Assembly (NCBI RefSeq): GCF_003344865.1
Contig: NZ_CP031165.1
Coordinates: 2,485,910-2,549,909 of the forward strand
DNA from: Euzebya pacifica
Lineage (GTDB): Bacteria > Actinomycetota > Nitriliruptoria > Euzebyales > Euzebyaceae
Length of the DNA stretch: 64,000 nucleotides
Direction: 5' to 3'
Part shown: positions 36,455-51,520 of the stretch, one piece after another
Position numbering within the stretch: position 1 is the stretch's first letter
How the letters are laid out: every line of letters begins with the position of its first letter
The notes under the pieces: generated by a model
The model's database searches: none
What the model saw: only the letters and a program-made list of their open reading frames with translations
What the model was told of the DNA's origin: nothing
Made by a program: the position numbers and the translations under genes

Positions 36455-38863
36455 TCAGCCGGTGGCGAGCCGGTCGAGCTGCCACTGGGTGTAGCTCGAC
36501 ACCGCCACCGGGCCGCCGAGGATCCGCATCGCGCCGATGCTGCCGGCGTTGCTGGCGAACCAGGCGGCGGTCGCCGGGTCGGTGTCCAGCGTCATCGACG
36601 GGACCAGCATCAGCCTGCCCTGCCGTGCTGCGGCCAGCGGGCCCCCGGCAAGGGCGTCGGGGAAGTCGTCACCGCGGGCCACGATCACCTCCGCCGACAG
36701 GGTCATCTGCTGGGCCAGCCAGTCGTTGACCGCCCCGGACGTGGCGTACCGGCCGCCGCCACCGAGCCGGGTGACGACGACTCCGAGCGCGCGCAGCTGG
36801 TCGGTCACGGCAGCCGACAGCTGGCCGTCGCTGTCGATCACGACCACCTCGTCGACCCCGCGAAGCACGTCGGCCGCGGCCGGGTGCAGCTCCGCGGGCT
36901 GGGTCAGGAGGACCGGCATGCCGAGCAGCCCGCCCGGGCCGGCGGCGATCAGCGCATCGGGGAAGGTGAACGCCGGGACGAGGAACGCCCGGCTCGGACC
37001 GTCGCCCCCGCCGGCTGACTGCACCGCACGGGCCATCACGGCGGCGGTGTCGAAGCGGCTGTCACCTGCCAGCCGGCTGACGGCGAACCCGGCGGCCTCC
37101 AGCTGGGTGACGACCTCGGGGGCGATGACCGCCTCGCCGCCCAGCAGGCGGACCGACGACACGCCCAGGTCCCGAAGCGCCTGGACGGTCTGGGCCGGGA
37201 CCGACGACGTCCCGGTCAGCAGCAGCGGACCGCCCAGCGCCGCCGCCAGCGGGCCCCCGGCCAGGGCGTCGGGGAAGCTGGAGGAGACCGCCAGCACCGC
37301 GGTCGAGGAGCCGGAGGGGTGGGCCGCTCGGGCGATCGCCACGGCCGTGTCGATGCGGCCCGCCCCCTGCAGCCTGGAGGTGGTGGTGAAGGAGTAGTCG
37401 TGCACGACCTGCAGCGACGTGGCGACGGTGCGGATGGCGCTGTCGCAGCACGGCGAGTTGCGCAGCACCCCGTCGACGACCATCTGGGAGGACCCGCCGC
37501 CGTCGAGGCTCAGGGCCTCCACGGCGCCGAGGGAGATCATGTACTCGGCCAGCTCACCGATGGTGAAGCCGTGGGTGATGCCGGGCCGGCGCCCGTCGGC
37601 GGTGACCATCAGCAGCCGCCCGTCGGCGGTGACGCCGATGGCGGTCCGCGGGGCCCGGACGTCGGAGTGGATCTGGGGCTCGAATCCCTCCGACACCCAG
37701 TCGCCCGGGTCGGTCGGGCGGCTGTCCTTGACGATCATCGGCCCGCCCGCCAGCCCGTGGAGGACCTGTGCCCACGCCTCGTCCCGGGTCGGGTCCAGCG
37801 CCGTGGACGTGGTCGACAGCCCGACCTGGTCGCCGACCTCAACCCCGTCCAGCGCACCAGCGTCGGCGCCGGTGGCCACGACGATGACCTCACCACCGCC
37901 GGCCTCGAAGGTGCCGGCGCTGTCACGGGAGATGCCGATGACCGTCCCGCCGATGCCACCGGCAGCTGGCCACGCCCCCGCGGCGATGCGCAGGACGGCA
38001 AGGTCGACGGGCGGCTGCTCGGGCTCGGCACCCGGCAGGGGAGGGGGCGCCGGCTGGTCGGGGTCGGTCGGGGCGGGCGTCGGCTCGGGCTCCGGCGGCG
38101 GGGGCTGCCGCGGTTCGGTCACGGCCACCGGCCCGCCGTGGTCGGGGGTGTAGGCCAGCAATGAGTCGATGCCGTCGGCGAACAGCTCGTCGTACTCGCG
38201 ATGCCCCCGGTTGATGCCGTCCACGTCCAGGTTGGCGCCGTTGGCCAGGACCAACGTCTGCGTCGTGTCGATCCGGTCGATCACGACCCGGCCGTCGGCG
38301 GTCCAGCCGACGGTGCCGCGGGGGCCCACCCCCTGGCTCTCGGCATCGCTGACCAACCGACCGTCGATGGCGAAGAAGCCGTTGGGTTCGCCGTACGGGT
38401 CGCGCAGCCAGAACCCGCCGTTGGTGGCCGCCACCGATCCGGCCAGCGGATCACCGCTCTGGGCAGCGACGGTCGCCGTGCCCCTGACCGAGCCGCCCGC
38501 GAGCGTCGGCCGGACGCTGACGTCGGCGCCGGGGTCGAGGTGGAGGATCTGCACGTCGACGTTCTTGCCGTCCGACAGCGTCGTGCGGCGCGCGTCCAGC
38601 CGCACCCCGGGCCAGACCGGACCGCCGCCGGGGGCTGGCTCGCCCTCGAAGCCCGCGAACGCCGATCCCTCGGGGCCGGGCAGCCAGCCGTCGTCCACCA
38701 GGCCGCCCTCGGGGGCGGTGGACCCTCCGCCCGTGGCCTCGTGGGTGTCCACCGAGCGGGCAGGGTCACCGTCCGCAGCGGGTGCCGGGACCAGCCCGCC
38801 GAGCAGGGCGAACGGGATCAGGAGGACAACGAGGGTGGATCGGGGTGTGGGGAGGAAGCGCAT
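36455..38863 (-). CDS. Secreted phosphodiester glycosidase (NAGPA) domain protein with three CWB2 repeats
   Basis: An 802-residue exoprotein. The signal peptide MRFLPTPRSTLVVLLIPFAL ends near residue 30. After a linker come a phosphodiester glycosidase (NAGPA-type) domain at ~65-490, with NGGFWLRDPYGEPNGFF, VTADGRLLMVTADGR and EALSLDGGGSSQMVVDG as family marks, interrupted by a Pro-rich insertion at ~240-275. Three CWB2 repeats follow (~500-800; FPDALAGGPLAAALGG, VRLLGGEAVIAP, SRLAGDSRFDTAAVMARA). The family cleaves phosphodiester-linked sugars; on a wall-anchored protein, teichoic acids or phosphorylated glycans are likely targets. The start was chosen for its signal peptide. Confidence 0.88.
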   Translation of the reverse strand: MRFLPTPRSTLVVLLIPFALLGGLVPAPAADGDPARSVDTHEATGGGSTAPEGGLVDDGWLPGPEGSAFAGFEGEPAPGGGPVWPGVRLDARRTTLSDGKNVDVQILHLDPGADVSVRPTLAGGSVRGTATVAAQSGDPLAGSVAATNGGFWLRDPYGEPNGFFAIDGRLVSDAESQGVGPRGTVGWTADGRVVIDRIDTTQTLVLANGANLDVDGINRGHREYDELFADGIDSLLAYTPDHGGPVAVTEPRQPPPPEPEPTPAPTDPDQPAPPPLPGAEPEQPPVDLAVLRIAAGAWPAAGGIGGTVIGISRDSAGTFEAGGGEVIVVATGADAGALDGVEVGDQVGLSTTSTALDPTRDEAWAQVLHGLAGGPMIVKDSRPTDPGDWVSEGFEPQIHSDVRAPRTAIGVTADGRLLMVTADGRRPGITHGFTIGELAEYMISLGAVEALSLDGGGSSQMVVDGVLRNSPCCDSAIRTVATSLQVVHDYSFTTTSRLQGAGRIDTAVAIARAAHPSGSSTAVLAVSSSFPDALAGGPLAAALGGPLLLTGTSSVPAQTVQALRDLGVSSVRLLGGEAVIAPEVVTQLEAAGFAVSRLAGDSRFDTAAVMARAVQSAGGGDGPSRAFLVPAFTFPDALIAAGPGGLLGMPVLLTQPAELHPAAADVLRGVDEVVVIDSDGQLSAAVTDQLRALGVVVTRLGGGGRYATSGAVNDWLAQQMTLSAEVIVARGDDFPDALAGGPLAAARQGRLMLVPSMTLDTDPATAAWFASNAGSIGAMRILGGPVAVSSYTQWQLDRLATG

Positions 38864-38956
38864 CTGCCCATCGATGCTGCCGCAGTTCGCTGCCCCCGTG
38901 GCAGAACCCATGCCGTGAGCGCGCCCGCCCGATTCCCGCCCCGGCCGTCGGCCTCC

Positions 38957-38969: not shown

Positions 38970-40406
38970 ATGGCTGTCGATCGGCTCAGCGTCCTCGACT
39001 CCTCCTTCCTGGAGCTGGAGTCACCCAACCACCACATGCACGTGGGTGGCCTCGGCATCTTCGAGGCCGGACTCAGGTACGCCGACGTCGTCCGTGTCCT
39101 GCGTGACCGCATCGAGCAGGTCCCCAACGCCCGCCGTCGTGTCCGTGCCCTCCCTGCCGTCGCGGGACGGCCGCTGTGGGTGGACGACCCCGACTTCGAC
39201 CTGACCTACCACGTGCGTCACGCTGCCCTGCCGGCGCCCGGCGATGCCCATCAGCTCGGCGAGTTCCTGTCGCGGCTGATGGGCCGAGCGCTGGACCGCG
39301 ACCGGCCGCTGTGGGAGATCTACGTGATCGACGGGCTCGAGGGCGACCGCGTCGGCATGTTCCGCAAGGTCCACCTCGCGATGGCCAACGGCGAGGCGGG
39401 CGACCCGTTCAGCGTGCTGCTGGACGAGGGTCGCAACGAGCTGCAACCAGAGGTCGGTCGGTTCAACCGGGCATGGCACCCCGACCGCCCGCCGCCCCGG
39501 TCCGCGGTGCTGGCCGATGCGATGGGCTCGCGCCTCGAACGCGTCCGGCAGGTCGGCCTGGCCGCGGTCGAGTCGCTGGACCCCCGGGTCGGGCTGCCCC
39601 GGGCCGGCGCGGTGGCCGAGTCCGCCTTCGGGTTGGTGACCCGCCTCGTGCAGGGTGCCCCGACGTCGCCGCTGAACCGTCGCCTGTCCCCACACCGCCG
39701 GTTCGCGACCGCGACCTGCCAGCTCGACGACCTGCGCATCGTCCGACGCGCGTTCGGTGGATCGATCAACGACATCGTCGTGACGGTCGTCGGTGACGCG
39801 GTCGGACGGCTGCTGCGCTGGCGGGGTCACGAGACCAAGGACCTCGACCTCAAGATCATGGTCCCCGTCCGGGTCCACGAGGGGGCGACTCACCAGCCGG
39901 GGCTGGGTGAGGCGTTCACCGTCGGCGACGGGGTCGTCGGCGTCCTCGCGCCCCTGCCGGTCATGGAGATGGATCCGGTCGCCCGGTTGTACCGGATCAT
40001 GGGCGAGCTGGCCGGCCTGAAGGAGTCCCGCCAGGCCGTTGCCGCTGACCAGCTGGTCCGGGTTGCCGGCTATGCGCCGCCCGCCATGCATGCCCTGGCC
40101 GCCCGTGTGGTCTCCGGCGAGCAGCGGTACAACATCGCCCTGTCCAACGCGCCGGGCCCCCAGACCCCCCGGTTCCTCGCCGGCAACCTGCTGGAGGAGT
40201 CCTACCCGTTCATCCCGCTGGCCGGTGACTCGGCGCTGTCGTTGGCCGTGTCCTCCTACGACGGCCGGATGCACTTCGGGCTGCTCGGCGACCGGGACAC
40301 CCTCTTCGACATCGACCGCCTCTCGGACTTCGTCACCGAGTCCGTGGCCGATCTGCGGCACGCTGCCGAGGTGCACCTCGCCGCTGAACAGGAGTCGACC
40401 TCGTGA
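38970..40406 (+). CDS. WS/DGAT-family acyltransferase with degenerate active site
   Basis: A 478-residue member of the wax ester synthase/diacylglycerol acyltransferase family: LDSSFLELESPNHHMHVGGL at the N-terminus, RPLWEIYVIDGL, SINDIVVTVVGDAVGRLL and YNIALSNAPGP are all family blocks. At the catalytic site, where active enzymes have HHxxxDG (commonly KVHHAMVDG), this protein has KVHLAMANG: the second His is Leu and the Asp is Asn. It may therefore be catalytically inactive or have changed chemistry. It is the first gene of an operon with xdhC-, miaE-, cyclo-ligase- and otsB-like genes; the next start overlaps its stop (GTGA). Confidence 0.85.
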   Translation: MAVDRLSVLDSSFLELESPNHHMHVGGLGIFEAGLRYADVVRVLRDRIEQVPNARRRVRALPAVAGRPLWVDDPDFDLTYHVRHAALPAPGDAHQLGEFLSRLMGRALDRDRPLWEIYVIDGLEGDRVGMFRKVHLAMANGEAGDPFSVLLDEGRNELQPEVGRFNRAWHPDRPPPRSAVLADAMGSRLERVRQVGLAAVESLDPRVGLPRAGAVAESAFGLVTRLVQGAPTSPLNRRLSPHRRFATATCQLDDLRIVRRAFGGSINDIVVTVVGDAVGRLLRWRGHETKDLDLKIMVPVRVHEGATHQPGLGEAFTVGDGVVGVLAPLPVMEMDPVARLYRIMGELAGLKESRQAVAADQLVRVAGYAPPAMHALAARVVSGEQRYNIALSNAPGPQTPRFLAGNLLEESYPFIPLAGDSALSLAVSSYDGRMHFGLLGDRDTLFDIDRLSDFVTESVADLRHAAEVHLAAEQESTS

Positions 40407-41209
40407 ACGTCTATGACGCCCTTGCCAACGCCCGTGGCCGCGGCCGCCGGGTCGTCCTGCTGACGGTGCTCGCCGTCAGCGAGGACGCGTCGTCCCACAG
40501 CGGGGCCAAGATGGTCGCCGACGCCGACGGGTCCGTCGCCGGATCACTGGGCTGCTCGGAGTTCGACACCGCCGGTGTGGAGCTCGCCGGGGAGGCGCTG
40601 CGGGTCGGTGGACCGATCCGTCGACGCGTGACCTTCGGCGGGCACGACGAGGAGGAACGCAGCATCGAGGTGTTCGCCGAGGTCCACGAACCGGAGGCAG
40701 CCGTCCTGGTCTTCGGGGCCAACCCCGTCGGGTGTGCCGTCGCGCGGCAGGCCGACATGATCGGCCGGCGGGTCACGGTGGTGACTCCCGGTGGGACCAC
40801 CGACGTGCCACCGGCGGTGGAGGTCAAGGCCGACGACCCCGGACGCTTCCTGCTGGTCGCCCCTCCGGGTCCGAACGACGCCGTGCTGCTCAGCGACCAC
40901 GACGCCCCCTACGTCGATGAGGTCCTGCGTGTGGCGTTGGCCAGCGAAGCCGGCTTTGTCGGCATGCTGGGGTCGCGTCGCCACGCCCCCGGCGCGGTCC
41001 GCCGCCTGCGCGAGGCCGGCACCCCCGAGGCCCACATCGCCCGGCTCCGCGCGCCCGTTGGCCTGGACATCGGCAGCCGCACCCCCGAGGAGATCGCCCT
41101 GTCGATCGTCGCGGAGATCCTCGCCGCGGAGAACGGCCGCGACGGCGGCCGCATGGGGCTGGACTGGTCGCAGGGGACCGACGGCGACGGCGAGGAGGAG
41201 GCGCGGTGA
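40403..41209 (+). CDS. XdhC/CoxI-family protein
   Basis: A 268-residue protein of the XdhC family: an N-terminal XdhC/CoxI domain (LLTVLAVSEDASSHSGAKM, SLGCSEFDTAG) and a C-terminal Rossmann domain (AVLVFGANPVGCAVARQAD, GFVGMLGSRRHAPGAVRRL, GLDIGSRTPEEIALSIVAEI). XdhC proteins bind molybdenum cofactor and help insert its sulfurated form into xanthine dehydrogenase-type enzymes. No xanthine dehydrogenase or CO dehydrogenase is nearby, so its client is elsewhere. GTG start, overlapping both neighbours by 4 nt. Confidence 0.87.
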   Translation: MNVYDALANARGRGRRVVLLTVLAVSEDASSHSGAKMVADADGSVAGSLGCSEFDTAGVELAGEALRVGGPIRRRVTFGGHDEEERSIEVFAEVHEPEAAVLVFGANPVGCAVARQADMIGRRVTVVTPGGTTDVPPAVEVKADDPGRFLLVAPPGPNDAVLLSDHDAPYVDEVLRVALASEAGFVGMLGSRRHAPGAVRRLREAGTPEAHIARLRAPVGLDIGSRTPEEIALSIVAEILAAENGRDGGRMGLDWSQGTDGDGEEEAR

Positions 41210-41850
41210 CCGGCCCGGAGGACCGTGTGCTGACCGTCCGCGACCCGCTGATCCCCGACGAACGGGTCGACGCGCTGCGCATCGCCACCCCACCCGGCTG
41301 GGAGGAGGTGGCCCTGGCCGACCTGCGTTCGACCATGAGCGACCACGCCCACGCCGAGAAGAAGGCGGCGCTGTCGGCGCTTTCGATGCTGAACCGCTAC
41401 CCCGACCGCGACGACATCGTCTACCGGATGGCCAAGCTGGCCCGCGAGGAGATCCGCCACCTCGACCAGGTGCTGACCCACATGCGGGCCCGCGGCTGGA
41501 CGTTGATGGCCGACCGGCCCGACCGCTTCGCCAAGGCCCTGCTGGCCGAACGCCGTGGCGGCGCGGGCGAGGCCGAGCTGTGCGACAAGCTGCTGGTCGC
41601 CGCGCTCATCGAGGCACGGTCGTGGGAACGGCTGAATCTGCTGTCGCTGGCGCTGGAGGATGCCGGCGACCCGCGCCTGGCGGCCTTCTACGACGAGCTC
41701 GCCCGTTCCGAGGCCGGCCACTACCGGGTGTTCGTGGAGCTGGCGCTGGCCGAGTGCCCCACCGAGGACGTCGTCGGACGCCTGTCCTACCTCGCGGAGG
41801 TGGAGGCCGCCGTCATCGCAACGTTGCCACACCAGCCGCGCATCCATTGA
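41206..41850 (+). CDS. miaE: MiaE-like tRNA hydroxylase (diiron)
   Basis: A 214-residue ferritin-like four-helix protein. The diiron ligands are visible as DHAHAEKKAA (Glu), EEIRHLDQVL (Glu, xxHis), LLVAALIEARSWERL (Glu) and ARSEAGHYRVFVEL (Glu, xxHis), the pattern of MiaE. MiaE hydroxylates the isopentenyl side chain of 2-methylthio-N6-isopentenyladenosine at tRNA position 37. MiaA/MiaB partners are not in the window. The start is GTG, overlapping xdhC by 4 nt; the stop overlaps the next ATG by one base (TGATG). Confidence 0.85.
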   Translation: MTGPEDRVLTVRDPLIPDERVDALRIATPPGWEEVALADLRSTMSDHAHAEKKAALSALSMLNRYPDRDDIVYRMAKLAREEIRHLDQVLTHMRARGWTLMADRPDRFAKALLAERRGGAGEAELCDKLLVAALIEARSWERLNLLSLALEDAGDPRLAAFYDELARSEAGHYRVFVELALAECPTEDVVGRLSYLAEVEAAVIATLPHQPRIH

Positions 41851-42644
41851 TGGCCGGCCCGGGACGGGGCCGTACACCGAAGGACCACGCCCACGACGCC
41901 GGCGGTGACCCCGAGGTCCTGGCCGCGAAGGCGGCCCTGCGCGAGGAGGCATGGCAGGCCGTCGTGGATGCCGAGGCCGCCCGGTTCCCCGGGGCGTTCC
42001 ACCGGATCCCCAACTTCGTCGGCGCCGAGGCGGCAGCGGAAGCGTTGCGTGACACGGCCGCGTGGGCCGACGCGGTGACGGTGAAGTCCAACCCCGACAG
42101 CCCCCAGTGGCCGGTCCGGCAGCGGGCGCTGGAGGACGGCAAGACCGTCTTCATGGCGGTGCCACGCCTGGCCGAGGCGCATCCCTTCGTGGCGCTGCGA
42201 CCCGACGAGATCCCGGTCACGCCGCGAAAGGCCGCCTCGATCAAGGGGTCCTCGGTCCACGGGGTCCCCGTGGCGGTCGAGGCGCTGGAGCCCGTCGACC
42301 TGGTCATCACGGGCTGCGTCGCCGTCGACGAGGCCGGTGGACGCCTGGGCAAGGGCGGCGGCTTCGCCGACCTGGAGTTCGCGATCGCCCAGGAGGCCGG
42401 GATGATCACCGAGGACACGATCGTGGCGACCACCGTGCACGACTGCCAGGTCGTCGACGTCGGGCGCATCCCCGTGACCGAGCACGACGCGCCCCTGGAC
42501 CTGATCGTCACCCCCACGCGGGTGATCGAGGTCCGCGGACGACGTCCACGTCCGGCGGGGATCCGTTGGGACGAGCTGACCGACGACAAGATCGCGGCCA
42601 TCCCGCTGCTGCAGCGCCTGGCCGTCCGGAAGGACCGAACGTGA
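41850..42644 (+). CDS. 5-formyltetrahydrofolate cyclo-ligase-like protein
   Basis: A 264-residue member of the 5-formyl-THF cyclo-ligase (MTHFS) superfamily, in the branch shared with archaea and vertebrate MTHFSD. FPGAFHRIPNFVGAEAAA, AVTVKSNPDSPQWPVRQ and LVITGCVAVDEAGGRLGKGG (nucleotide/phosphate loop GxGGGFAD) are visible. Classical members close 5-formyl-THF to 5,10-methenyl-THF using ATP; this branch is less well characterised. A basic, hydrophilic N-terminal ~30 residues precedes the domain. Translation is coupled to miaE by TGATG. Confidence 0.8.
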   Translation: MAGPGRGRTPKDHAHDAGGDPEVLAAKAALREEAWQAVVDAEAARFPGAFHRIPNFVGAEAAAEALRDTAAWADAVTVKSNPDSPQWPVRQRALEDGKTVFMAVPRLAEAHPFVALRPDEIPVTPRKAASIKGSSVHGVPVAVEALEPVDLVITGCVAVDEAGGRLGKGGGFADLEFAIAQEAGMITEDTIVATTVHDCQVVDVGRIPVTEHDAPLDLIVTPTRVIEVRGRRPRPAGIRWDELTDDKIAAIPLLQRLAVRKDRT

Positions 42645-43387
42645 CCATCGACTGGCCCGCGGGCCCCCTCGACCGCGCCTGCCTGGTGCTGGACTTCGAC
42701 GGCACCCTCGCCCCGATCGTGTCGGACCCGGCGACGTCGGCCATGCCGGACTCGACGCGGACGGTGCTGGCCTCGCTGGTCGGCCGCGTCGGTCGGCTGG
42801 CGATCGTGTCGGGTCGGCCCGCAGGGTTCCTGGCCGAACGCGTCGGCGTCGACGGCGCCGAGCTGGTCGGCCTGTACGGGCTGGAGCGGGTGGTCGACGG
42901 ATCGGTCGAACCGGACCCCCGCGTCGCCCCCTACCTGGATGCCCTGGCGGCGGCGAAGGTGGCGATGGGGGAGGAGGTCGCCCGCTGGGAGGGTGCGGAG
43001 CTGGAGGACAAGGGTCGGGCGTTCGCCGTGCACTGGCGTCGGGCCGCTGACCGGGACGCGGCAGCGGTGGCGCTGGAGGCCATGGCCCGGCGTGTGGCCG
43101 GCGAGCTCGCGGTGGAGGACGGGAAGATGGTCGTCGAGCTGCGGCCGCCCGTGGCGGCCGACAAGGGCACCGCCGTCGCCCTGCTGGCCGACGGCTTCGA
43201 CGACGTCTGCTTCGCCGGGGACGACCTCGGCGACCTGCCGGCCTTCGCCGAGGTCCGCTCCCGTGGGGGGCTTGCCGTCGCCGTCGACCACGGCGAGGAG
43301 ACCGACCCCCGCGTGCGTGCGGCCGCCGACGTCGTCGTCGACGGCACCGCCGGCTTCGCCGACTGGCTGGCCGCCCGCCTGGCCTGA
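42641..43387 (+). CDS. otsB: Trehalose-6-phosphate phosphatase (OtsB)
   Basis: A 248-residue HAD-superfamily phosphatase. Motif I LVLDFDGTLAPIVSDP contains the nucleophile and acid Asp pair, motif II is IVSGRP, motif III Lys is in VAADKGTAVALL, and motif IV FAGDDLGDLPAF binds Mg. Together with VVELRPP these are the marks of OtsB, which removes phosphate from trehalose-6-phosphate. GGAAGG precedes the GTG start, which overlaps the previous stop by 4 nt. The synthase gene (otsA) lies on the opposite strand 0.8 kb away with one gene between, so the pathway is complete here. Confidence 0.92.
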   Translation: MTIDWPAGPLDRACLVLDFDGTLAPIVSDPATSAMPDSTRTVLASLVGRVGRLAIVSGRPAGFLAERVGVDGAELVGLYGLERVVDGSVEPDPRVAPYLDALAAAKVAMGEEVARWEGAELEDKGRAFAVHWRRAADRDAAAVALEAMARRVAGELAVEDGKMVVELRPPVAADKGTAVALLADGFDDVCFAGDDLGDLPAFAEVRSRGGLAVAVDHGEETDPRVRAAADVVVDGTAGFADWLAARLA

Positions 43388-43438: not shown

Positions 43439-44140
43439 CTACTTCAGGACGGTACCGAACGCGTCGGCGTCGTTGATGGACAGGCTGGACGGCGTCTCGG
43501 CGGAGTCGTAGTACAGGACGTGGTTGCCGTCGCCGTAGTAGGCCTCGCTGAACTGCAGGACGATCTCGTGCCTGGTGGTGGCGGTGTTGTCGGCCAGCTT
43601 GCTGTACAACCCCGTGAACTGGAAGTAGGCGGTCTGCAGCTCGCTGTCGTGGGTGACGGTCATCATTTCGGCGGTGTCGGCTGCGGCGTTGCCGTAGTTG
43701 TCGTAGACGGTCGTGCCACCGATGCTCAGGCGGACCCGCATGTTGGGGTTGGCGGCCAGGGCCGCGTCCAGGGGGTTGCCGAGGTACATCGCGGCGGACA
43801 TCTCGTCGATCACGCCGGTGAAGGCCCCATGGATGGTGTGGGAGAACCGGGGATCGGTGTCGTCCACGAACGTGACGCCGGGCACCACGTTGACGTTGAC
43901 GCCTCCGCTGCGCCGGTCACCGGACGTCGGCGCCTCGTCGGTCAGGCCGATGGCCTGGAGGTTCCCCAGATTGCCCCCGAGGCCGGTGAGGTACTTGGTG
44001 TCGTGGCAGGCCAGGACCTCGGTGGCGGGGTCGTTGGGGAAGATGTCGTAGCAGTCGCCCTCGGCAGCGCCGGCGACGGCACCGCCCAGCGGCAGGACCA
44101 GCGCGAGGGCTGCAGCGGCGAACGTGGGGAATGACTTCAT
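43439..44140 (-). CDS. Secreted protein of unknown function
   Basis: A 233-residue exported protein. The signal peptide MKSFPTFAAAALALVLPLGG ends near AGA-AEG. The mature part has two Cys near its start (DCYDIF, LACHDTKYL) that could form a disulfide, and is otherwise rich in Asn, Thr, Asp and aromatic residues with a beta-strand look (MRVRLSIGGTTVYDNYG, TRHEIVLQFSEAYYGDGN). I recognise no family. The ATG at 44140 has AAGG 8 nt upstream. It lies 83 nt downstream of otsA on the same strand, so co-transcription with otsA is possible. Confidence 0.75.
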   Translation of the reverse strand: MKSFPTFAAAALALVLPLGGAVAGAAEGDCYDIFPNDPATEVLACHDTKYLTGLGGNLGNLQAIGLTDEAPTSGDRRSGGVNVNVVPGVTFVDDTDPRFSHTIHGAFTGVIDEMSAAMYLGNPLDAALAANPNMRVRLSIGGTTVYDNYGNAAADTAEMMTVTHDSELQTAYFQFTGLYSKLADNTATTRHEIVLQFSEAYYGDGNHVLYYDSAETPSSLSINDADAFGTVLK

Positions 44141-44223
44141 GGCCTGGACCTTCCGAGGACGTTGGGGTTGGTCGGCCAGTTCGACGCGGTGGGGGGTCAT
44201 TCCTCCCCGGAGGATCGAAGTCG

Positions 44224-45702
44224 TCAGTCGCCGACGGCCACGTCCAGGGCGCGACGTTGTGCGCTCAGCCAGTCAGCCGGGGTGCCCGACGACGCGGCGT
44301 CCTTCAGGGCAGCGGCCCGGCGGGCTCGCTCCTCGGCCCCCATCTCCAGGGCGTGTTCGAGCGCGTCCACGGTCTGTTCGACGTCGAAGGGGTTGACGAA
44401 GACCGCATCGGTCATCGTGTCGGCCGCCCCGGCGTTGCGGGACAGGACGAGCACCCCGTCGCGTTCGTTGAGGGCCGGCCCCTCCTTGGCCACCAGGTTC
44501 GTCCCGTCGATCACGGGGTTGGTCAGCAGCACGTCGTAGGACTGCATCGACGCCACGACTCGCGGGAAGCTGTTGTCGACGTCGATCTCCAGGACCGACT
44601 CGCCGTGGCGTCCGCAGATCTCCTCGCCCAGATCGATGCAGCGCTGCAGGTACTCGCGGTACTCCGGTACCCCCTGTCGGGAGGGGTTGAGCAGCACACG
44701 GAAGTGCACGCGGTCGACCAGGTCGGGGCGACGCTGCAGCAGCAGGTCGTAGGCGACCAGGCCACGGAGGATGTTCTTGGACAGGTCCGTGCGGTCGGCC
44801 CGCACGATCAGCTGGCGGTCGCCGACCTGCTCGACCAGGGCGTCGCGTTCGGCGATCGCCGCGTCGGATGCCGCCACCTCGGCCAGGCTGTCGGCGTCGA
44901 TGCCGAGCGTGAAGTCCTTCAGCAGCAACCGGCCACGCGGCGACGCGACCCACGTCCCGTCCGGCGTCGGTTCCACCGCCGGGCAGCCGCCCAGCTGGAC
45001 CAAGCAGGAGCGCAGGGTGTCGGTCCACTCCGACGCCGACAGGCCGACGACGTCGCAGGCAACGAGCCCGTCGAGGATCGCGGTGACCATGGGGTCGGGG
45101 AGCCGCCGGAAGTACGTCGGGTGGACCCACGGCGTGTGGATGTAGTGCAGGATCCTTGCGCCCGGGATCGCCGCGCGGATGTGCGGGGCGGCGGTCAGCA
45201 GGTGGTAGTCCTGCAGGTGGATCTCTGGGGTCGGGTCGTCCCCGGCCTCGGCGACGACGGCCTCGGCAACCTGGCGGTTGACGTCCTGGTAGGCCGCCCA
45301 CGCGTCGGTCCAGCCGTCACCGAGCGGGTAGTACGGCTCGGACCACAGCTGGTGCAGGGTGAACCACAGCAGCCGGTTGGCGACCTTGTTGTAGTAGTCG
45401 TCGTAGACCTCGCCGACGTCGACGAGACGCAGGGTGAAGCGGCCCTGGCCGGTGTCGGCCGTGAACGCCTGCCCGTCGTGGGCGGCCGACATCTCGCGGT
45501 CGCCGTCCTCCAGCGCCACCGACACCCAGGTTCCCGGCCGCTCCTGCAGGGCGCCGCCGAGCGCCACGATCAGCCCGCCGGCGCCCCGTGAGGGTGTCCA
45601 CGAGCCGTCGTCGGCCTGCGACCACGACACGGGGCCGCGGTTGGACGCAACGATCAGCTTGCCGGTGCTCGCCGGATCGGTCTCCATCGCGTCAGCGCTC
45701 AT
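44224..45702 (-). CDS. otsA: Trehalose-6-phosphate synthase (GT20 family)
   Basis: A 492-residue GT20 glycosyltransferase. IVASNRGPVSW and SRGAGGLIVALGGAL form the N-terminal donor loop. IHLQDYHLLTAAPHI and ILHYIHTPWVHPTYFRRLP are the central motifs, VGLSASEWTDTL follows, and the C-terminal sugar-nucleotide site is LVAKEGPALNERDGVLVLSR. It joins UDP- or GDP-glucose to glucose-6-phosphate. The sequence is a divergent OtsA; a related glucosylglycerol-phosphate synthase cannot be excluded, although the nearby otsB supports trehalose. The ATG overlaps the lipoate-ligase-like stop (ATGA). Confidence 0.88.
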   Translation of the reverse strand: MSADAMETDPASTGKLIVASNRGPVSWSQADDGSWTPSRGAGGLIVALGGALQERPGTWVSVALEDGDREMSAAHDGQAFTADTGQGRFTLRLVDVGEVYDDYYNKVANRLLWFTLHQLWSEPYYPLGDGWTDAWAAYQDVNRQVAEAVVAEAGDDPTPEIHLQDYHLLTAAPHIRAAIPGARILHYIHTPWVHPTYFRRLPDPMVTAILDGLVACDVVGLSASEWTDTLRSCLVQLGGCPAVEPTPDGTWVASPRGRLLLKDFTLGIDADSLAEVAASDAAIAERDALVEQVGDRQLIVRADRTDLSKNILRGLVAYDLLLQRRPDLVDRVHFRVLLNPSRQGVPEYREYLQRCIDLGEEICGRHGESVLEIDVDNSFPRVVASMQSYDVLLTNPVIDGTNLVAKEGPALNERDGVLVLSRNAGAADTMTDAVFVNPFDVEQTVDALEHALEMGAEERARRAAALKDAASSGTPADWLSAQRRALDVAVGD

Positions 45703-46509: not shown

Positions 46510-46809
46510 TCAGCCGATCTCGGCAACCATGCCGAACTTGTCCTCGTACCCGGTCATGTTGGTGTTCAGCGCCCGGATGACCTTGCCGACCATCGTCGGG
46601 GCGATCTTGACACGCGAGACGACCTCCGCCTGCACCTTGCCCGGCTCGCCGCCCGGCATGATCTGGCAGAAGTCGAGGGTGAACTCGTGCGCCGAGTGGC
46701 TGACGACGAGGAAGTTGGCGTAGGTGCCGAACCGCTCGTCGTCGTCGACCTTGATGTTGACGCGGGGCTGCTGGGGCGGCTGGGGCTGCTGCGGGTCGGT
46801 GTCGCTCAT
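46510..46809 (-). CDS. DUF3467 small protein
   Basis: A 99-residue protein with a Gln/Pro-rich N-terminus (TDPQQPQPPQQPRVNIKVD) and a DUF3467 core (TYANFLVVSHSAHEFTLDFC, VVSRVKIAPTMVGKVIRAL). The family is widespread and uncharacterised. The ATG lies 7 nt after TACCAT on the minus strand and has no Shine-Dalgarno. It diverges from the giant metzincin gene, whose own TATCGT hexamer is 30 nt away. Confidence 0.88.
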   Translation of the reverse strand: MSDTDPQQPQPPQQPRVNIKVDDDERFGTYANFLVVSHSAHEFTLDFCQIMPGGEPGKVQAEVVSRVKIAPTMVGKVIRALNTNMTGYEDKFGMVAEIG

Positions 46810-46816
46810 GGCCAGC

Positions 46817-46822
46817 ATGGTA
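46817..46822 (-). promoter_or_regulatory. -10 element, probable leaderless promoter of the DUF3467 gene
   Basis: TACCAT on the minus strand, 7 nt (GCTGGCC), then the ATG at 46809. Confidence 0.5.
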
Positions 46823-46846
46823 GGGCGCCGGTCGAGGGTCGGGTGT

Positions 46847-46852
46847 TATCGT
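46847..46852 (+). promoter_or_regulatory. -10 element of the metzincin gene (leadered)
   Basis: TATCGT, 27 nt before the GTG at 46880. The resulting transcript would have a leader of about 20 nt containing TTGGAG, a usable ribosome site. This contrasts with the leaderless genes. Confidence 0.4.
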
Positions 46853-46879
46853 CACAGCACGCATCCGATTGGAGCGGGC

Positions 46880-49800
46880 GTGAGGGCACACCGCCAGATC
46901 CGTGCGGGTCTGCCCCGCACCGCCGCGGTGTGGGTGGTCGTGCTGCTGGGGCTGACGGCGCCGCCCGACGTGGCGGCCCAGGACGAACCCGAACCGGTCA
47001 TGGACGTCCTCCGCACCGCCGACGGCGCGGTTCCACCGGAGGACTTCGGGACCGCCATCGGCCACGTGGTCGACGACGCCGGACGGATCGTGGCGTTCGC
47101 CACCAGCGTCGGCGGGGTGCTGAACGACCAACCGGACGACAACGACGCCAGCGACGTCTACATCTGGGACCGGACGGACGGCCGGACCCGGTTGATCTCG
47201 ACCGCCAACGGCAGCGACGCCGCCGCGGACGGTCCCGCCACCAACCCCAGGATCAGCCGGGACGGCCGCTACGTCTTCTACCTGTCGGACTCCACCAACG
47301 GCGCTCCCCAGCCCAACACCAGGGACGACGGATCGCGGCTGGGCACGATGCTGCTGCGCTACGACGTCGACCGGGGCACCACCGAGCTGGTGACCCGCTC
47401 GGTCGACGACCGGCGGGCGTGCGGCCAGGTCAACAGCAACGAGTCCGTCTTCGGGGCCCGTGCGCCGTTCGAGATCGCCGACGACGGGTCGGCCGTCGCG
47501 TTCACCGCCAGGTGTCCGGACCTCGTCTACCCCGCGGAGGACACGACCGCGTGGTTCAACGACGAGCTGTACCTCTGGCGCGAGGGCCACGGCGTCGACT
47601 GGCTCAGCGAGGGCATCCCCGCGCCGACTGCCCAGGACCCCCACGTCGGATCGGGTGTGCGGCACGTCGTCCGCGGCATCTCCAGCGACGGGGCGGTCGT
47701 CACGTTCTCGGCCCAGACCAGCGGACAGCGTTGGCAGGCCTTCGACCGATCCGCGTTCGAGGAGACCGCCAACTTCTTCCTCTACACGTGGCGCGCCGGC
47801 CTGATCGAACCCGTCTTCTTCAACAACGACCTGAGCCCCGTCGGGTCGTCGTTCCATGCGATGGCCCTCGCCGGGGACGGTCGCACGTGGGCGGTCATCC
47901 CGCGCGAGGCGTCCCAACGGTGTGGCCCGACACCGGCGGTGTGTGTCCGTCGTGGTGACTCGATCGCCGCGGACATCGGCCCCATCGACCTTCCCGGCCC
48001 GCTGTCGCAGTCCGGCATCGCGCTGGCCCGCAACGGCGCTGGACTGGTCCTCGAGACGATCGGCGAGCGAAGTGACTCCGGGGCGTGGTTCCACGATCTG
48101 GAGACCGGTGAGAACATCCTGGTGACACGGACCCCCGACGGCGAACCGGTTGACACGCTGCAGCCGACCGAGCTGATCGGCTTCAACCAGCGGGACCGTG
48201 CCGTGGTCAGCGACGACGGGACGGCGGTCGTGTTCCGTGGGGACCCGGCCCTCTTCGGGTTCGGCAACGCCGACGAACCCTTCTCGCGTCCCGAGGGCAG
48301 CGCCGACCTGTTCGTCTTCGACGTGCCGACGCGGACGGTCGGGCTCGTCGCCCAGCCCGGAACCGCGTCCACCGGCGGATTCGTGCACATCAGCTCCTTC
48401 GGGCAGGTCATCACCGGTTCCGGCGAGGTCGTGGTGTTCCTGAGCTCCCAGCAGCTCAACGACGACGACACCGACGACGGGGTCGACCTCTACGCCTGGG
48501 GCGGGCCGGTCGAGCTGCCTGACCCCGACCCGGTCGTGGAGGCCATCGAGGTCAACCAGGGCATCCAGACACGGGTGGCACGGGCCGGCGCAATCGACTC
48601 CACCGTCGACTATCCCGACCAGGACGTGCCGTTCGTCGTCGGGCGGGACACCTTGGTCCGCCTGTACCCGTTCGCAGGGGAGGGTGCCGATCCTGCGGTG
48701 TACGACGTCGACCTCCGCCTGCAGGTCGAGCTCGACATCGCCCCAGGGGTGCTGCCGCCGCAGGTCGTGCTGGAGACGACGACGGTGATCCGGCCCAACG
48801 TCTTCGGTGAACCGCGCCCCGTGGTCGGCCCGGCGGATGCGGAGCTGGACCGCCAGCTGCTGGTCATGCGGGCCGACCCGTCCAGGACGGTGGAGTTCGT
48901 GCTCGACGGCGACGCAGTGCTGTCGGAGGGCGAGGTCGTCGGCGCGGACCTGGTGCCCCGCGAGCTGATCCGCGGCGTGTGGCTGACCCCGTGGCACGAG
49001 TTCGAGGACCGCGCCGTCGGCGGCACTGTCCGTGTTGACCTTCAGCCGGCCGAGGACCTTCGGGTGCACCTGCTCAACTTCACCGGTCCGCACTTCAGGA
49101 ACCTGACAGACGAGTTCGGGCGTCCCGGCGCGAACGCCGACATCGGACGCTTCCGCCGTGAGGTCGTGCCGTACCTGGAACGCACCACGCCCTTCGCCGG
49201 CGTGGCCGTGGCGTCGGCCACCGACGTGGTCCTGCAGGACCCCTCCCGTCCGTTCCGGGCCCGGGGTGCCGATGGGCGTGTCCGGCAGCTGGCCCCGGCC
49301 AACGACTGCCTCCGGGCGCTGCACCTGGCGGCCCTGGCGGCCGCGGGCAACGTCGCCCCGACCGCGCCTGCCGACTACACCGTCACCCTCGGGTACGGCA
49401 CCACGTTCCGCGCCTGCTTCGGCCTCGCCTATGGCTTCGACGGGGCACGGCTGGGCGCGTCGGCGGCCACGCGCTACGGCAACGCCTGGCCGATGGTGAC
49501 GGCGTCCCTTGGGGACTCCGCGGCCCACGAGCTGGGACACACCATGGGGATTCGCCATGCCGACGGCAGCCATCGGGAAGCCGATGCCGAGGCGTGGCCC
49601 TACGGCCGCGGCTGGATCAACCCCTCGACCAGCGGTCCCGAGCGGCAGGCGTTCGGCGCGTTGATGACCGACCTCAGCGGGCAGCTGATCGCCACGCCGC
49701 TGGGCACGGCGGTCCTGTCCAACAGCTGGACGGCGTCGGTGCTGGACTTCTGTCCGACCACGGGGGAGCGGACCGCACCGTGCACCAACGGCGACGCCCA

Positions 49801-51520
49801 GCAGGGGGCCGAGCTGATGAGCTACGGCAGCTCGCCCCCGGCGGTGGACCTGTCGCCGCTGGTCACGACGGTCAGGGACCGGTGGCCCTCGGACCTGACG
49901 TGGCGGCGGATGGTTGCGGCGATGGGTGGGCTGCCGACCACCACGCCGTTCCCGCCGTCCTCACCGGCCCCGGAGGCGTCTGCTCCTGCGCCCCGGCAGG
50001 CACCGCCCGGGGCGGACGGCGCGCTGGTGGTGTCGGTGCTCGAGCAGGACGGCGAACGGTTCCTGCTGCCGGCCGACCACGTGTCGGGCCGGGGCGCGAT
50101 CGTGGAGGCCGAGTCCGACGACCTCGTCGTGGAGGCCCGGGACGCCGACGGCGGAGTGCTCGCGGCCGCGCCGGTGATCGAGGGCGTGCAGGAGGAGGCA
50201 GAGGCGGTGCTGCACGTCGCCGTCCTGCCCGCGATGGCCGACGTCACGTCGCTCGTGCTGGTGGAGGACGGCGACGACGCCATCGCGTGGCCCGCCTCGG
50301 CCAACGCGCCCACGGTGTCGCTGACCGTGCCCGAGACGGTCACGGCCGACCGCGCGACCGTCGAGCTCGCGGTCGACGACGCCGACGCCGACGACGTGCT
50401 GGGGGCCACCCTGTCGATCTCCGTCGACGGTGGGGAGACCCGGTCGCTGCTGCGGCACCTCGATCCGGCCGAGACCGGTCCGGCCACGATCGACCTGTCC
50501 GGCTTCCCGACCGGGCCGGCGATCCTCCGTGCTGCCGTCTCCGACGGGCTGCTGGTCGACATCGCGGATGCGGACCTGGTCATCGGCCCGCTGCGCCGGT
50601 TGTCCGGTGACTCGCGTGTTGCGACGGCCATCGAGGTGTCCCGTGCCAGCCATCCCGAGGACGGGTCTGCGGCCACCGCGGTGCTTGCCCGCGCCGACGG
50701 GTTCGCCGATGCGCTGTCGGGTGCGACGCTGGCCACGCAGGTCGCCGGACCGCTGCTGCTGAACCCGACCGACCGGCTGGCCGACGAGGTCGCGGCCGAG
50801 CTGACCCGGCTGGACGTGGACGAGGTCGTCCTGCTCGGTGGGGTGTCGGCGCTGTCGGCGCAGGTGGCCGCGGACCTCGGTGCCATGGGCGTCACCGTCG
50901 AACGGGTGGCCGGGGACTCGCGCTTCGCCACCGCGGGCGCGGTCGCCGACCGGGTCGACAGCGCGCACGCGTTCCTGGTGGAGGGGGCGAACGCCGACCC
51001 CGGGCGGGGCTGGCCGGACGCGGTCTCGGCCTCGGCGCTCGCGGCCTTCCGTGGTGACCCCGTGCTCCTTGCCACACGGGACGAGCTGCCCGCAGCGACC
51101 GCCGAGGCGCTGACTCGCAACGGTATCGGCGCGGTGACGATCGTGGGTGGCACGGCCGCCGTCGGGGATGCGGTCGCAGCGGCGTTGACCGACCTCGGGA
51201 TCGCCGTGGAACGGGTGGCCGGCCCTAGCCGCTTCGCCACCTCCGGCGAGGTCGCGGCGCTGGCCCAGCAGCTCGGAGCCGACGGCAACCGGGTGTGGCT
51301 GGCGACCGGCTCGAACTTCCCCGACGCCCTGGCCGCCGGCCCTGCCGCTGCAGCCGACGGTGGCGTGCTGCTGCTGGTCGACCGCGACACGCTGGACGGT
51401 TCCCCCGCGGTGGGGGAGTGGATCGAGGACCACCCGGACCTGTCCCAGGTGACGCTCGTCGGTGGCACGGCCGCGATCAGCGACCAGGTGGCCGCCGACC
51501 TCGAGGCCCGGGCTGGCTGA
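46880..51520 (+). CDS. Giant secreted metzincin-type metalloprotein with propeller-like repeats and CWB2 anchor
   Basis: A 1546-residue exoprotein, the largest gene in the window. The signal peptide ends near TAPPDVAAQD. Residues ~40-540 are WD40/PD40-like (TolB-type) repeats with recurring patterns such as SRDGRYVFYLSD, SSDGAVVTFSAQT and SGSGEVVVFLSS. A central region (~550-1050) carries the zinc motif AAHELGHTMGIRHADG (HExxHxxGxxH) and a methionine-turn candidate AELMSYGSS. Beta-rich spacer modules (~1060-1240) precede three CWB2 repeats to the end (ATAVLARADGFADALSGA, EVVLLGGVSALSAQV, VTLVGGTAAISDQV). It starts with GTG after TTGGAG. The likely role is a wall-anchored protease or adhesin. 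Confidence 0.9.
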   Translation: MRAHRQIRAGLPRTAAVWVVVLLGLTAPPDVAAQDEPEPVMDVLRTADGAVPPEDFGTAIGHVVDDAGRIVAFATSVGGVLNDQPDDNDASDVYIWDRTDGRTRLISTANGSDAAADGPATNPRISRDGRYVFYLSDSTNGAPQPNTRDDGSRLGTMLLRYDVDRGTTELVTRSVDDRRACGQVNSNESVFGARAPFEIADDGSAVAFTARCPDLVYPAEDTTAWFNDELYLWREGHGVDWLSEGIPAPTAQDPHVGSGVRHVVRGISSDGAVVTFSAQTSGQRWQAFDRSAFEETANFFLYTWRAGLIEPVFFNNDLSPVGSSFHAMALAGDGRTWAVIPREASQRCGPTPAVCVRRGDSIAADIGPIDLPGPLSQSGIALARNGAGLVLETIGERSDSGAWFHDLETGENILVTRTPDGEPVDTLQPTELIGFNQRDRAVVSDDGTAVVFRGDPALFGFGNADEPFSRPEGSADLFVFDVPTRTVGLVAQPGTASTGGFVHISSFGQVITGSGEVVVFLSSQQLNDDDTDDGVDLYAWGGPVELPDPDPVVEAIEVNQGIQTRVARAGAIDSTVDYPDQDVPFVVGRDTLVRLYPFAGEGADPAVYDVDLRLQVELDIAPGVLPPQVVLETTTVIRPNVFGEPRPVVGPADAELDRQLLVMRADPSRTVEFVLDGDAVLSEGEVVGADLVPRELIRGVWLTPWHEFEDRAVGGTVRVDLQPAEDLRVHLLNFTGPHFRNLTDEFGRPGANADIGRFRREVVPYLERTTPFAGVAVASATDVVLQDPSRPFRARGADGRVRQLAPANDCLRALHLAALAAAGNVAPTAPADYTVTLGYGTTFRACFGLAYGFDGARLGASAATRYGNAWPMVTASLGDSAAHELGHTMGIRHADGSHREADAEAWPYGRGWINPSTSGPERQAFGALMTDLSGQLIATPLGTAVLSNSWTASVLDFCPTTGERTAPCTNGDAQQGAELMSYGSSPPAVDLSPLVTTVRDRWPSDLTWRRMVAAMGGLPTTTPFPPSSPAPEASAPAPRQAPPGADGALVVSVLEQDGERFLLPADHVSGRGAIVEAESDDLVVEARDADGGVLAAAPVIEGVQEEAEAVLHVAVLPAMADVTSLVLVEDGDDAIAWPASANAPTVSLTVPETVTADRATVELAVDDADADDVLGATLSISVDGGETRSLLRHLDPAETGPATIDLSGFPTGPAILRAAVSDGLLVDIADADLVIGPLRRLSGDSRVATAIEVSRASHPEDGSAATAVLARADGFADALSGATLATQVAGPLLLNPTDRLADEVAAELTRLDVDEVVLLGGVSALSAQVAADLGAMGVTVERVAGDSRFATAGAVADRVDSAHAFLVEGANADPGRGWPDAVSASALAAFRGDPVLLATRDELPAATAEALTRNGIGAVTIVGGTAAVGDAVAAALTDLGIAVERVAGPSRFATSGEVAALAQQLGADGNRVWLATGSNFPDALAAGPAAAADGGVLLLVDRDTLDGSPAVGEWIEDHPDLSQVTLVGGTAAISDQVAADLEARAG

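Follow-up and report, generated by a model that had tools for sequence, protein, structure and literature searches.

Results

Organization of the locus

The window, by which we mean the whole stretch of 64,000 nucleotides of Euzebya pacifica DNA analyzed here, holds an open reading frame that starts with ATG and encodes a WS/DGAT-type protein with an altered catalytic motif, followed on the same strand by four closely packed genes. The features on which the analysis draws are as follows.

38970..40406, + strand: WS/DGAT-fold protein with a degenerate catalytic motif, 478 aa, gene 1 of the putative operon (open reading frame, Pfam, TIGR02946 and structural model)
39306..39317, + strand: PLWE block, residues 113–116, invariant in the 13 aligned copies
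39366..39392, + strand: KVHLAMANG, the degenerate HHxxxDG motif (HLxxxNG), residues 133–141
39372–39374, + strand: H135, the first His of the motif, kept
39375–39377, + strand: L136, in place of the second (catalytic) His of the motif
39387–39389, + strand: N140, in place of the motif Asp
39762..39779, + strand: SINDIV block, residues 265–270, intact in the window, with Asn replaced by His in two carriers
40403..41209, + strand: XdhC/CoxI-like protein (Pfam: PF13478, PF02625), overlapping the preceding WS/DGAT-type gene by 4 bases
41206..41850, + strand: MiaE-family protein (Pfam: PF06175), present only in some carriers
41850..42644, + strand: 5-formyltetrahydrofolate cyclo-ligase (5-FTHF) family protein (Pfam: PF01812)
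42641..43387, + strand: trehalose-phosphatase (Pfam: PF02358)
44224..45699, − strand: glycosyltransferase family 20 protein (GT20, trehalose-phosphate synthase-like), convergent, closing the locus on its distal side in many carriers

Genes two to five start at 40403, 41206, 41850 and 42641, each inside the end of the gene before it, with overlaps of 4, 4, 1 and 4 bases, respectively, and overlaps of this kind back the original prediction that the WS/DGAT-type gene is probably the first of a five-gene operon; a simple scan found neither a sigma-70-like promoter nor a terminator (chance expectation 0.1 and 1.0). The MiaE-family protein scores 149 bits against PF06175 and 101 bits against the NCBIfam MiaE equivalog, well under the cut-off of 320 bits, and is perhaps a different diiron hydroxylase. 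The trehalose-phosphatase and GT20 genes face each other across an open reading frame (43439–44200, − strand) that has no Pfam match, and the pair recurs in further genomes of the window's order. On the divergent side, the gene at 36455–38872 (− strand) encodes an NAGPA phosphodiester glycosidase domain with three CWB2 cell-wall-binding repeats; the C-terminal part of a larger open reading frame at 46724–51520 (+ strand) resembles this protein, as judged by eye.

A full-length WS/DGAT homologue lacking two motif residues

The protein matches the WS/DGAT catalytic domain PF03007 (1.1e-57, 196 bits against a cut-off of 23.6) and the C-terminal domain PF06974 (3.4e-24), and its residues 6–466 match NCBIfam TIGR02946 at 370 bits, where the cut-off is 310; it is a full-length member of the WS/DGAT sequence family, above the curated cut-offs. 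Since both Pfam and TIGR02946 match, the placement of the motif is not in doubt, and in alignments with solved WS/DGATs KVHLAMANG lies opposite KVHHSLVDG (6CHJ, Marinobacter) and KIHHAMVDG (7NXG, Acinetobacter). Where WS/DGAT enzymes carry HHxxxDG, the window protein thus reads HLAMANG, and the open reading frame bears out the replacement of KVHHAMVDG by KVHLAMANG, with the second His changed to Leu and the Asp to Asn, from which this work started. The PLW and ND blocks of the family are both present in the window (PLWE at 113–116, SIND at 265–268). The further statement that all other family blocks are intact therefore holds for the window protein but not for all of its orthologues, as the ND-block Asn is His (HD) in two of them, G012 and G008.

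In the accessible part of PMC11948995 the second His is described as directly responsible for WS/DGAT catalysis and the first as having a structural role; replacement of the motif histidines lowers activity (same source; also Stoveken 2009, by its title), and active WS/DGATs with Asn, Ser or Asp at the first His are described there and in the corresponding part of PMC5513132.

An AlphaFold2 model computed on 36 rows has a mean pLDDT of 81 and a pTM of 0.82, with weak loops at 160–164, 208–226, 305–320, 356–373 and 380–384. It superimposes on 6CHJ with Z 39.4 (rmsd 2.7, 352 residues aligned) and on 7NXG with Z 39.2 (rmsd 3.0, 371 aligned), so that the model keeps the two-domain CAT-like fold of the solved WS/DGATs. 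The third-ranked structure is a dehydratase (8S6L, Z 25.6), followed by NRPS condensation-type domains (Z 22.1 and below) and by maize GL2 complexes, of the CER2-like BAHD proteins, at Z 18.3 (9LPG_E, rmsd 4.3, 316 aligned, 12% identity) and 17.8. Similarity to the NRPS X-domain 4TX2 is a distant similarity of fold (Foldseek E 3.2e-13).

Fixation of the loss among orthologues

A match to the window protein was found in 47 of 61 genomes searched (the window's own and 60 relatives). The degenerate gene itself is carried by 14, the own genome included, all of them within the 30 genomes of the window's order. Twelve other copies are full length, at 55–97% identity; the copy of G026 lies in two pieces at the ends of two contigs (53% and 64% identity), which we take to be one gene, counted for the motif and left out of the trees. 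All 14 copies have lost the second His (Leu in 13, Val in one) and the motif Asp, and all 14 keep the first His; no carrier has a stop codon inside the match. The substitution is thus shared by the 13 orthologues from the same order, as one of the checks proposed with the original prediction required, and the opposite case, a relative with an intact motif in the same operon, does not occur among the 14 carriers. In a scan of one genome per species across 84,980 species, from which close records of the window's genome may be missing, 500 loci were confirmed and the best 80 kept; three of the 80 belong to the window's clade, on the same contigs as the copies of G025, G012 and G018, and the rest are at 37–43% identity.

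The copies form one clade. In a 67-row tree its 12 rows group together (SH-aLRT 100), the long stem measures 1.14 changes per column, and the adjoining sequences are Nitriliruptoria copies whose HH...DG is intact (support 93); in a 76-row tree, from which the motif stretch was removed and to which paralogues of the carriers were added, 13 clade rows form a single branch (support 100, stem 0.88) with no intact sequence inside it, both being quick trees without bootstrap. One further row labeled degenerate in the 76-row tree, L191, is no carrier: it reads KTHH, and the label comes from an insertion that shifts the motif column.

Loss of the second His in the wider subfamily

To place the clade among its relatives we use 110 distinct rows of at least 380 aa, mostly closest relatives thinned only of identical copies, so that the counts apply to this sample rather than to the family. 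Every one of the 110 rows has the first His, and 31 have the second. The 79 rows without it comprise the 13 clade rows and 66 others, which have at this position Gln (38), Pro (18), Asn (5), Ser (3), Leu (1) or Tyr (1). Among 71 actinomycete rows the first His is kept in every one, the second is kept in seven and lost in 64, and the motif Asp is kept in 68. The second His in 18 of 18 rows of the Nitriliruptoria outgroup of the 102-row alignment is a matter of construction, since those rows were chosen for HH and the HN row L019 was left out, a choice that does not enter the 110-row count; alignment A2 does without L065, whose stated coordinates extend across a stop.

A WS/DGAT subfamily of Pseudonocardiaceae and Geodermatophilaceae near SecA (L038–L114) has HQ, HP, HN or HS, mostly with DG. 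Losses of the second His lie on branches apart from the window's clade, in Geodermatophilaceae (HP), in a Pseudonocardiaceae group and in two single rows, and the starred branches of the tree force at least four changes of the second-His label. Two single losses, HN in L019 (G048) and HY in L146 (G010), stand among otherwise intact WS/DGATs, and indicate that loss of the second His keeps recurring. The commonest neighbor clusters at 72 actinomycete loci are, by representatives, SecA (52), SpoU methylase (41), RsgA (30), DUF6912 (25) and EPSP synthase (24). We take this SecA/EPSP-synthase locus to be probably that of M. tuberculosis Rv3234c/Rv3233c ('tgs3') and the place of R. jostii atf10.

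Loss of the second His has also been published: in the accessible part of PMC2667194, Atf4, Atf10 and Atf14 of R. jostii RHA1 have it changed to Lys, Ser and Pro. As it recurs both in the subfamily and in print, the His change on its own surprises less than at first sight; the unusual part is that the Asp is lost as well, throughout the clade.

Selection on the degenerate gene

Compared with its 97% identical orthologue, the degenerate gene has a dN/dS of 0.035 (NG86, one species pair), that is, strong purifying selection, in agreement with the earlier suggestion that a gene that stays open is probably under selection. In the same pair seven neighbors range from 0.032 to 0.144 (FNR 0.032, MiaE 0.033, LipB 0.084, XdhC 0.104, TPS 0.109, phosphatase 0.138 and NAGPA 0.144), and three intact WS/DGAT paralogues give 0.041, 0.068 and 0.098, so that, in that pair, constraint on the degenerate copy is no weaker than on the intact paralogues. 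Against orthologues of 79% and 75% identity the values are 0.27 and 0.23, where dS is high; at this distance the gene is about equal to XdhC and MiaE and below LipB and TPS.

The 13 clade rows, with a mean identity of 61% and a lowest pairwise identity of 54%, have 135 invariant columns, in 28 of which the invariant residue is the majority residue of neither outgroup. Counted in the same manner, the Nitriliruptoria outgroup has 6 such columns (18 rows), or 10.2 (6–23) in samples of 13 rows, and 13-row actinomycete samples have a mean of 23.1 (13–47) at 69% identity. The 28 columns suggest that the clade changed in a direction of its own, a sign and not proof of it, because the actinomycete control samples reach as high. 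Both outgroups conserve 114 columns, of which 71 persist in 90% or more of the clade.

Neighboring genes and paralogues

XdhC is the next downstream gene, among those looked for, in 11 of the 14 carriers, and is not directly downstream in G018, G012 and G008. Carrier loci have FNR, ACT or NAGPA on one side, then XdhC, MiaE, cyclo-ligase or phosphatase, and farther on TPS, LipB and DUF3467, in subsets that vary between carriers; in this survey the contigs of G027, G014 and G026 end early. Among 12 XdhC loci of non-carriers in the window's order the upstream side is readable in 10, and none of these 10 has a WS/DGAT gene there (in G023 and G029 a contig end upstream leaves no judgement); XdhC thus stays at the locus in genomes without the degenerate gene. 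For other WS/DGAT copies of the class we read 22 stretches, 19 of them distinct (three contig loci are repeats), with HH in 18 and HY in one; none of the 19 has XdhC, TPS, phosphatase or LipB of the window locus nearby, and one stretch matches the cell-wall protein weakly, at 35 bits. The same four genes were likewise absent from 74 further loci, mostly of actinomycete relatives and some of them short.

Because its genes come and go between carriers, the operon says little on function. A function read from the neighbors (XdhC, MiaE, cyclo-ligase, phosphatase and synthase) was accordingly dropped, as was a role in trehalose esters, suggested by the adjoining trehalose genes, for which further support was absent.

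Elsewhere in the window's genome, hundreds of kilobases from the degenerate gene, lie three more PF03007 genes, in each of which HH...DG is intact. When the 14 carriers were searched with Pfam, at least one other PF03007 match was found in 11. In G006 (one contig, 95% complete) and G013 (about 230 contigs, 96% complete) the degenerate copy is the single match; the other twelve carriers have two to six, and the two of G026 are the pieces of its degenerate gene. With no other PF03007 match in G006 and G013, the protein need not serve an intact paralogue, and these genomes speak against a role solely as regulator of an intact WS/DGAT.

Discussion

A conserved protein that may work without acyl transfer

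We favor, with a probability of about 0.5, the reading that the clade represents a non-catalytic acyl-CoA- or lipid-binding protein, or a partner protein, in the WS/DGAT fold, comparable to the CER2-like proteins. It would be an old, neofunctionalised protein that has given up the acyl transfer of its family and most likely still binds acyl-CoA or another lipid, in the cleft that separates its two CAT-like subdomains; it would act on behalf of another enzyme, as its partner or by binding lipid, much as CER2-like proteins and NRPS X-domains function without the canonical catalytic histidine. In the accessible text of PMC5489795, His mutants of CER2 complement fully. The parallel is imperfect, because some Asp changes in OsCER2 impaired function and partner binding (same source) and the window clade has lost its Asp; moreover, against the partner side of this reading, no consistent partner gene stands beside the gene in the carriers, XdhC itself being there in only 11 of 14.

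Next in rank is a change of chemistry, in which H135 would still work in another acyl-CoA reaction, for example hydrolysis of the thioester or transfer to some other acceptor. The pattern of the subfamily, where the first His is universal in the sample and the second is mostly lost, is the opposite of that in the active WS/DGATs described in the accessible literature; related folds differ in reaction, as in the dehydratase 8S6L and in the Cy domains, which use DxxxxD (PMC11546977, in part); and a yeast relative has its thioesterase activity only reduced on loss of the motif His (PMC5489795, in part). We nevertheless consider it rather unlikely, as the clade also lacks the Asp, normally a support of the active site, no new His or Cys specific to the clade was found (five His persist in 11 or more of the 13 rows, each of them also the majority residue of the Nitriliruptoria outgroup, and no Cys persists), and the first His may persist for structure only, the role given to it in PMC11948995 as far as that text is accessible. 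The same residues bear on whether the protein is an ordinary, perhaps slow, WS/DGAT with other catalytic residues. Its TIGR02946 score and its PLW and ND blocks are what such an enzyme would have, and the second-His rule is debated in related domains: according to the accessible part of PMC11546977, loss of the second His in NRPS condensation domains does not always abolish activity, its role is disputed, and a condensation enzyme with HQxxxDM is active. With the second His stated to be directly responsible for WS/DGAT catalysis (PMC11948995, in part), the Asp lost in 14 of 14 copies and the ND Asn lost in two carriers, an ordinary enzyme appears improbable.

The protein could instead regulate or chaperone an intact WS/DGAT paralogue in the same cell, as a heteromer or as a competitor for acyl-CoA, for which most carriers, with three intact genes in the window's genome, have a candidate. 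This proposal is already weakened by the two genomes that keep the gene with no other PF03007 match, and with the window's paralogues also so distant on the chromosome we think it a poor prospect. As for a decaying gene heading for loss, its absence beside XdhC in the 10 readable non-carrier loci would fit; but a dN/dS of 0.035, the uninterrupted reading frames of the carriers and the many columns held invariant despite identities down to 54% amount to a constraint on the gene that refutes decay in practice, and we give it next to no weight.

A wider reading, put forward tentatively and with more doubt than belief, is that a whole actinobacterial WS/DGAT subfamily has inverted the catalytic rule, so that the first His matters and the second is free, and that the window clade is the branch that has gone farthest, with a lipid carrier, partner protein or thioesterase-like enzyme that stands alone, is no acyltransferase and persists even where a cell has no other WS/DGAT.

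Significance

The three R. jostii paralogues (PMC2667194, in part) are an earlier published case of WS/DGATs without the second His. In the open-licence literature searched we found neither a clade-wide loss of the second His and the Asp at a conserved locus nor a report on whether relatives without the second His are active. WS/DGAT homologues are used in genome searches as a sign of oil- or wax-making capacity, and the curated family model would label the window protein a WS/DGAT enzyme; a conserved clade without these residues means that such calls can mislead. The subfamily also offers a natural test of the two histidines, the first being kept and the second often lost, the reverse of the active enzymes described in the accessible literature. 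Should the protein prove to act as a partner without catalysis, bacteria would have an equivalent of the plant CER2-like proteins.

Comparison with known systems

The closest known systems are the bacterial WS/DGATs AtfA/AbWSD1 (7NXG) and that of Marinobacter (6CHJ), with which the window protein has in common the family, the predicted two-domain fold (Z 39) and the PLW and ND blocks; unlike them, the window clade lacks the second His and the Asp of HHxxxDG. Atf4, Atf10 and Atf14 of R. jostii RHA1 are likewise WS/DGAT homologues with the second His replaced; there, in the accessible part of PMC2667194, only the second His is concerned, whereas here the Asp is lost too and the loss is fixed throughout the clade. 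The actinomycete HQ, HP, HN and HS relatives near secA and EPSP synthase belong to the same subfamily, at 37–43% identity to the window protein, but mostly keep the Asp, occupy a different locus and represent separate losses on the tree. Plant CER2-like proteins and maize GL2, of the BAHD family, have the common superfamily fold and, in the accessible part of PMC5489795, a dispensable canonical catalytic His; they differ in their low identity (about 12%), in having HxxxD and not HHxxxDG, and in their plant fatty-acid elongase partners. Finally, the NRPS X-domain (4TX2) likewise has a condensation-type fold with a degenerate motif and, according to the accessible part of PMC11546977, recruits other enzymes; it is part of a megasynthase and its motif is changed otherwise, to HRxxxDD, whereas HLAMANG stands in a separate protein of 478 aa.
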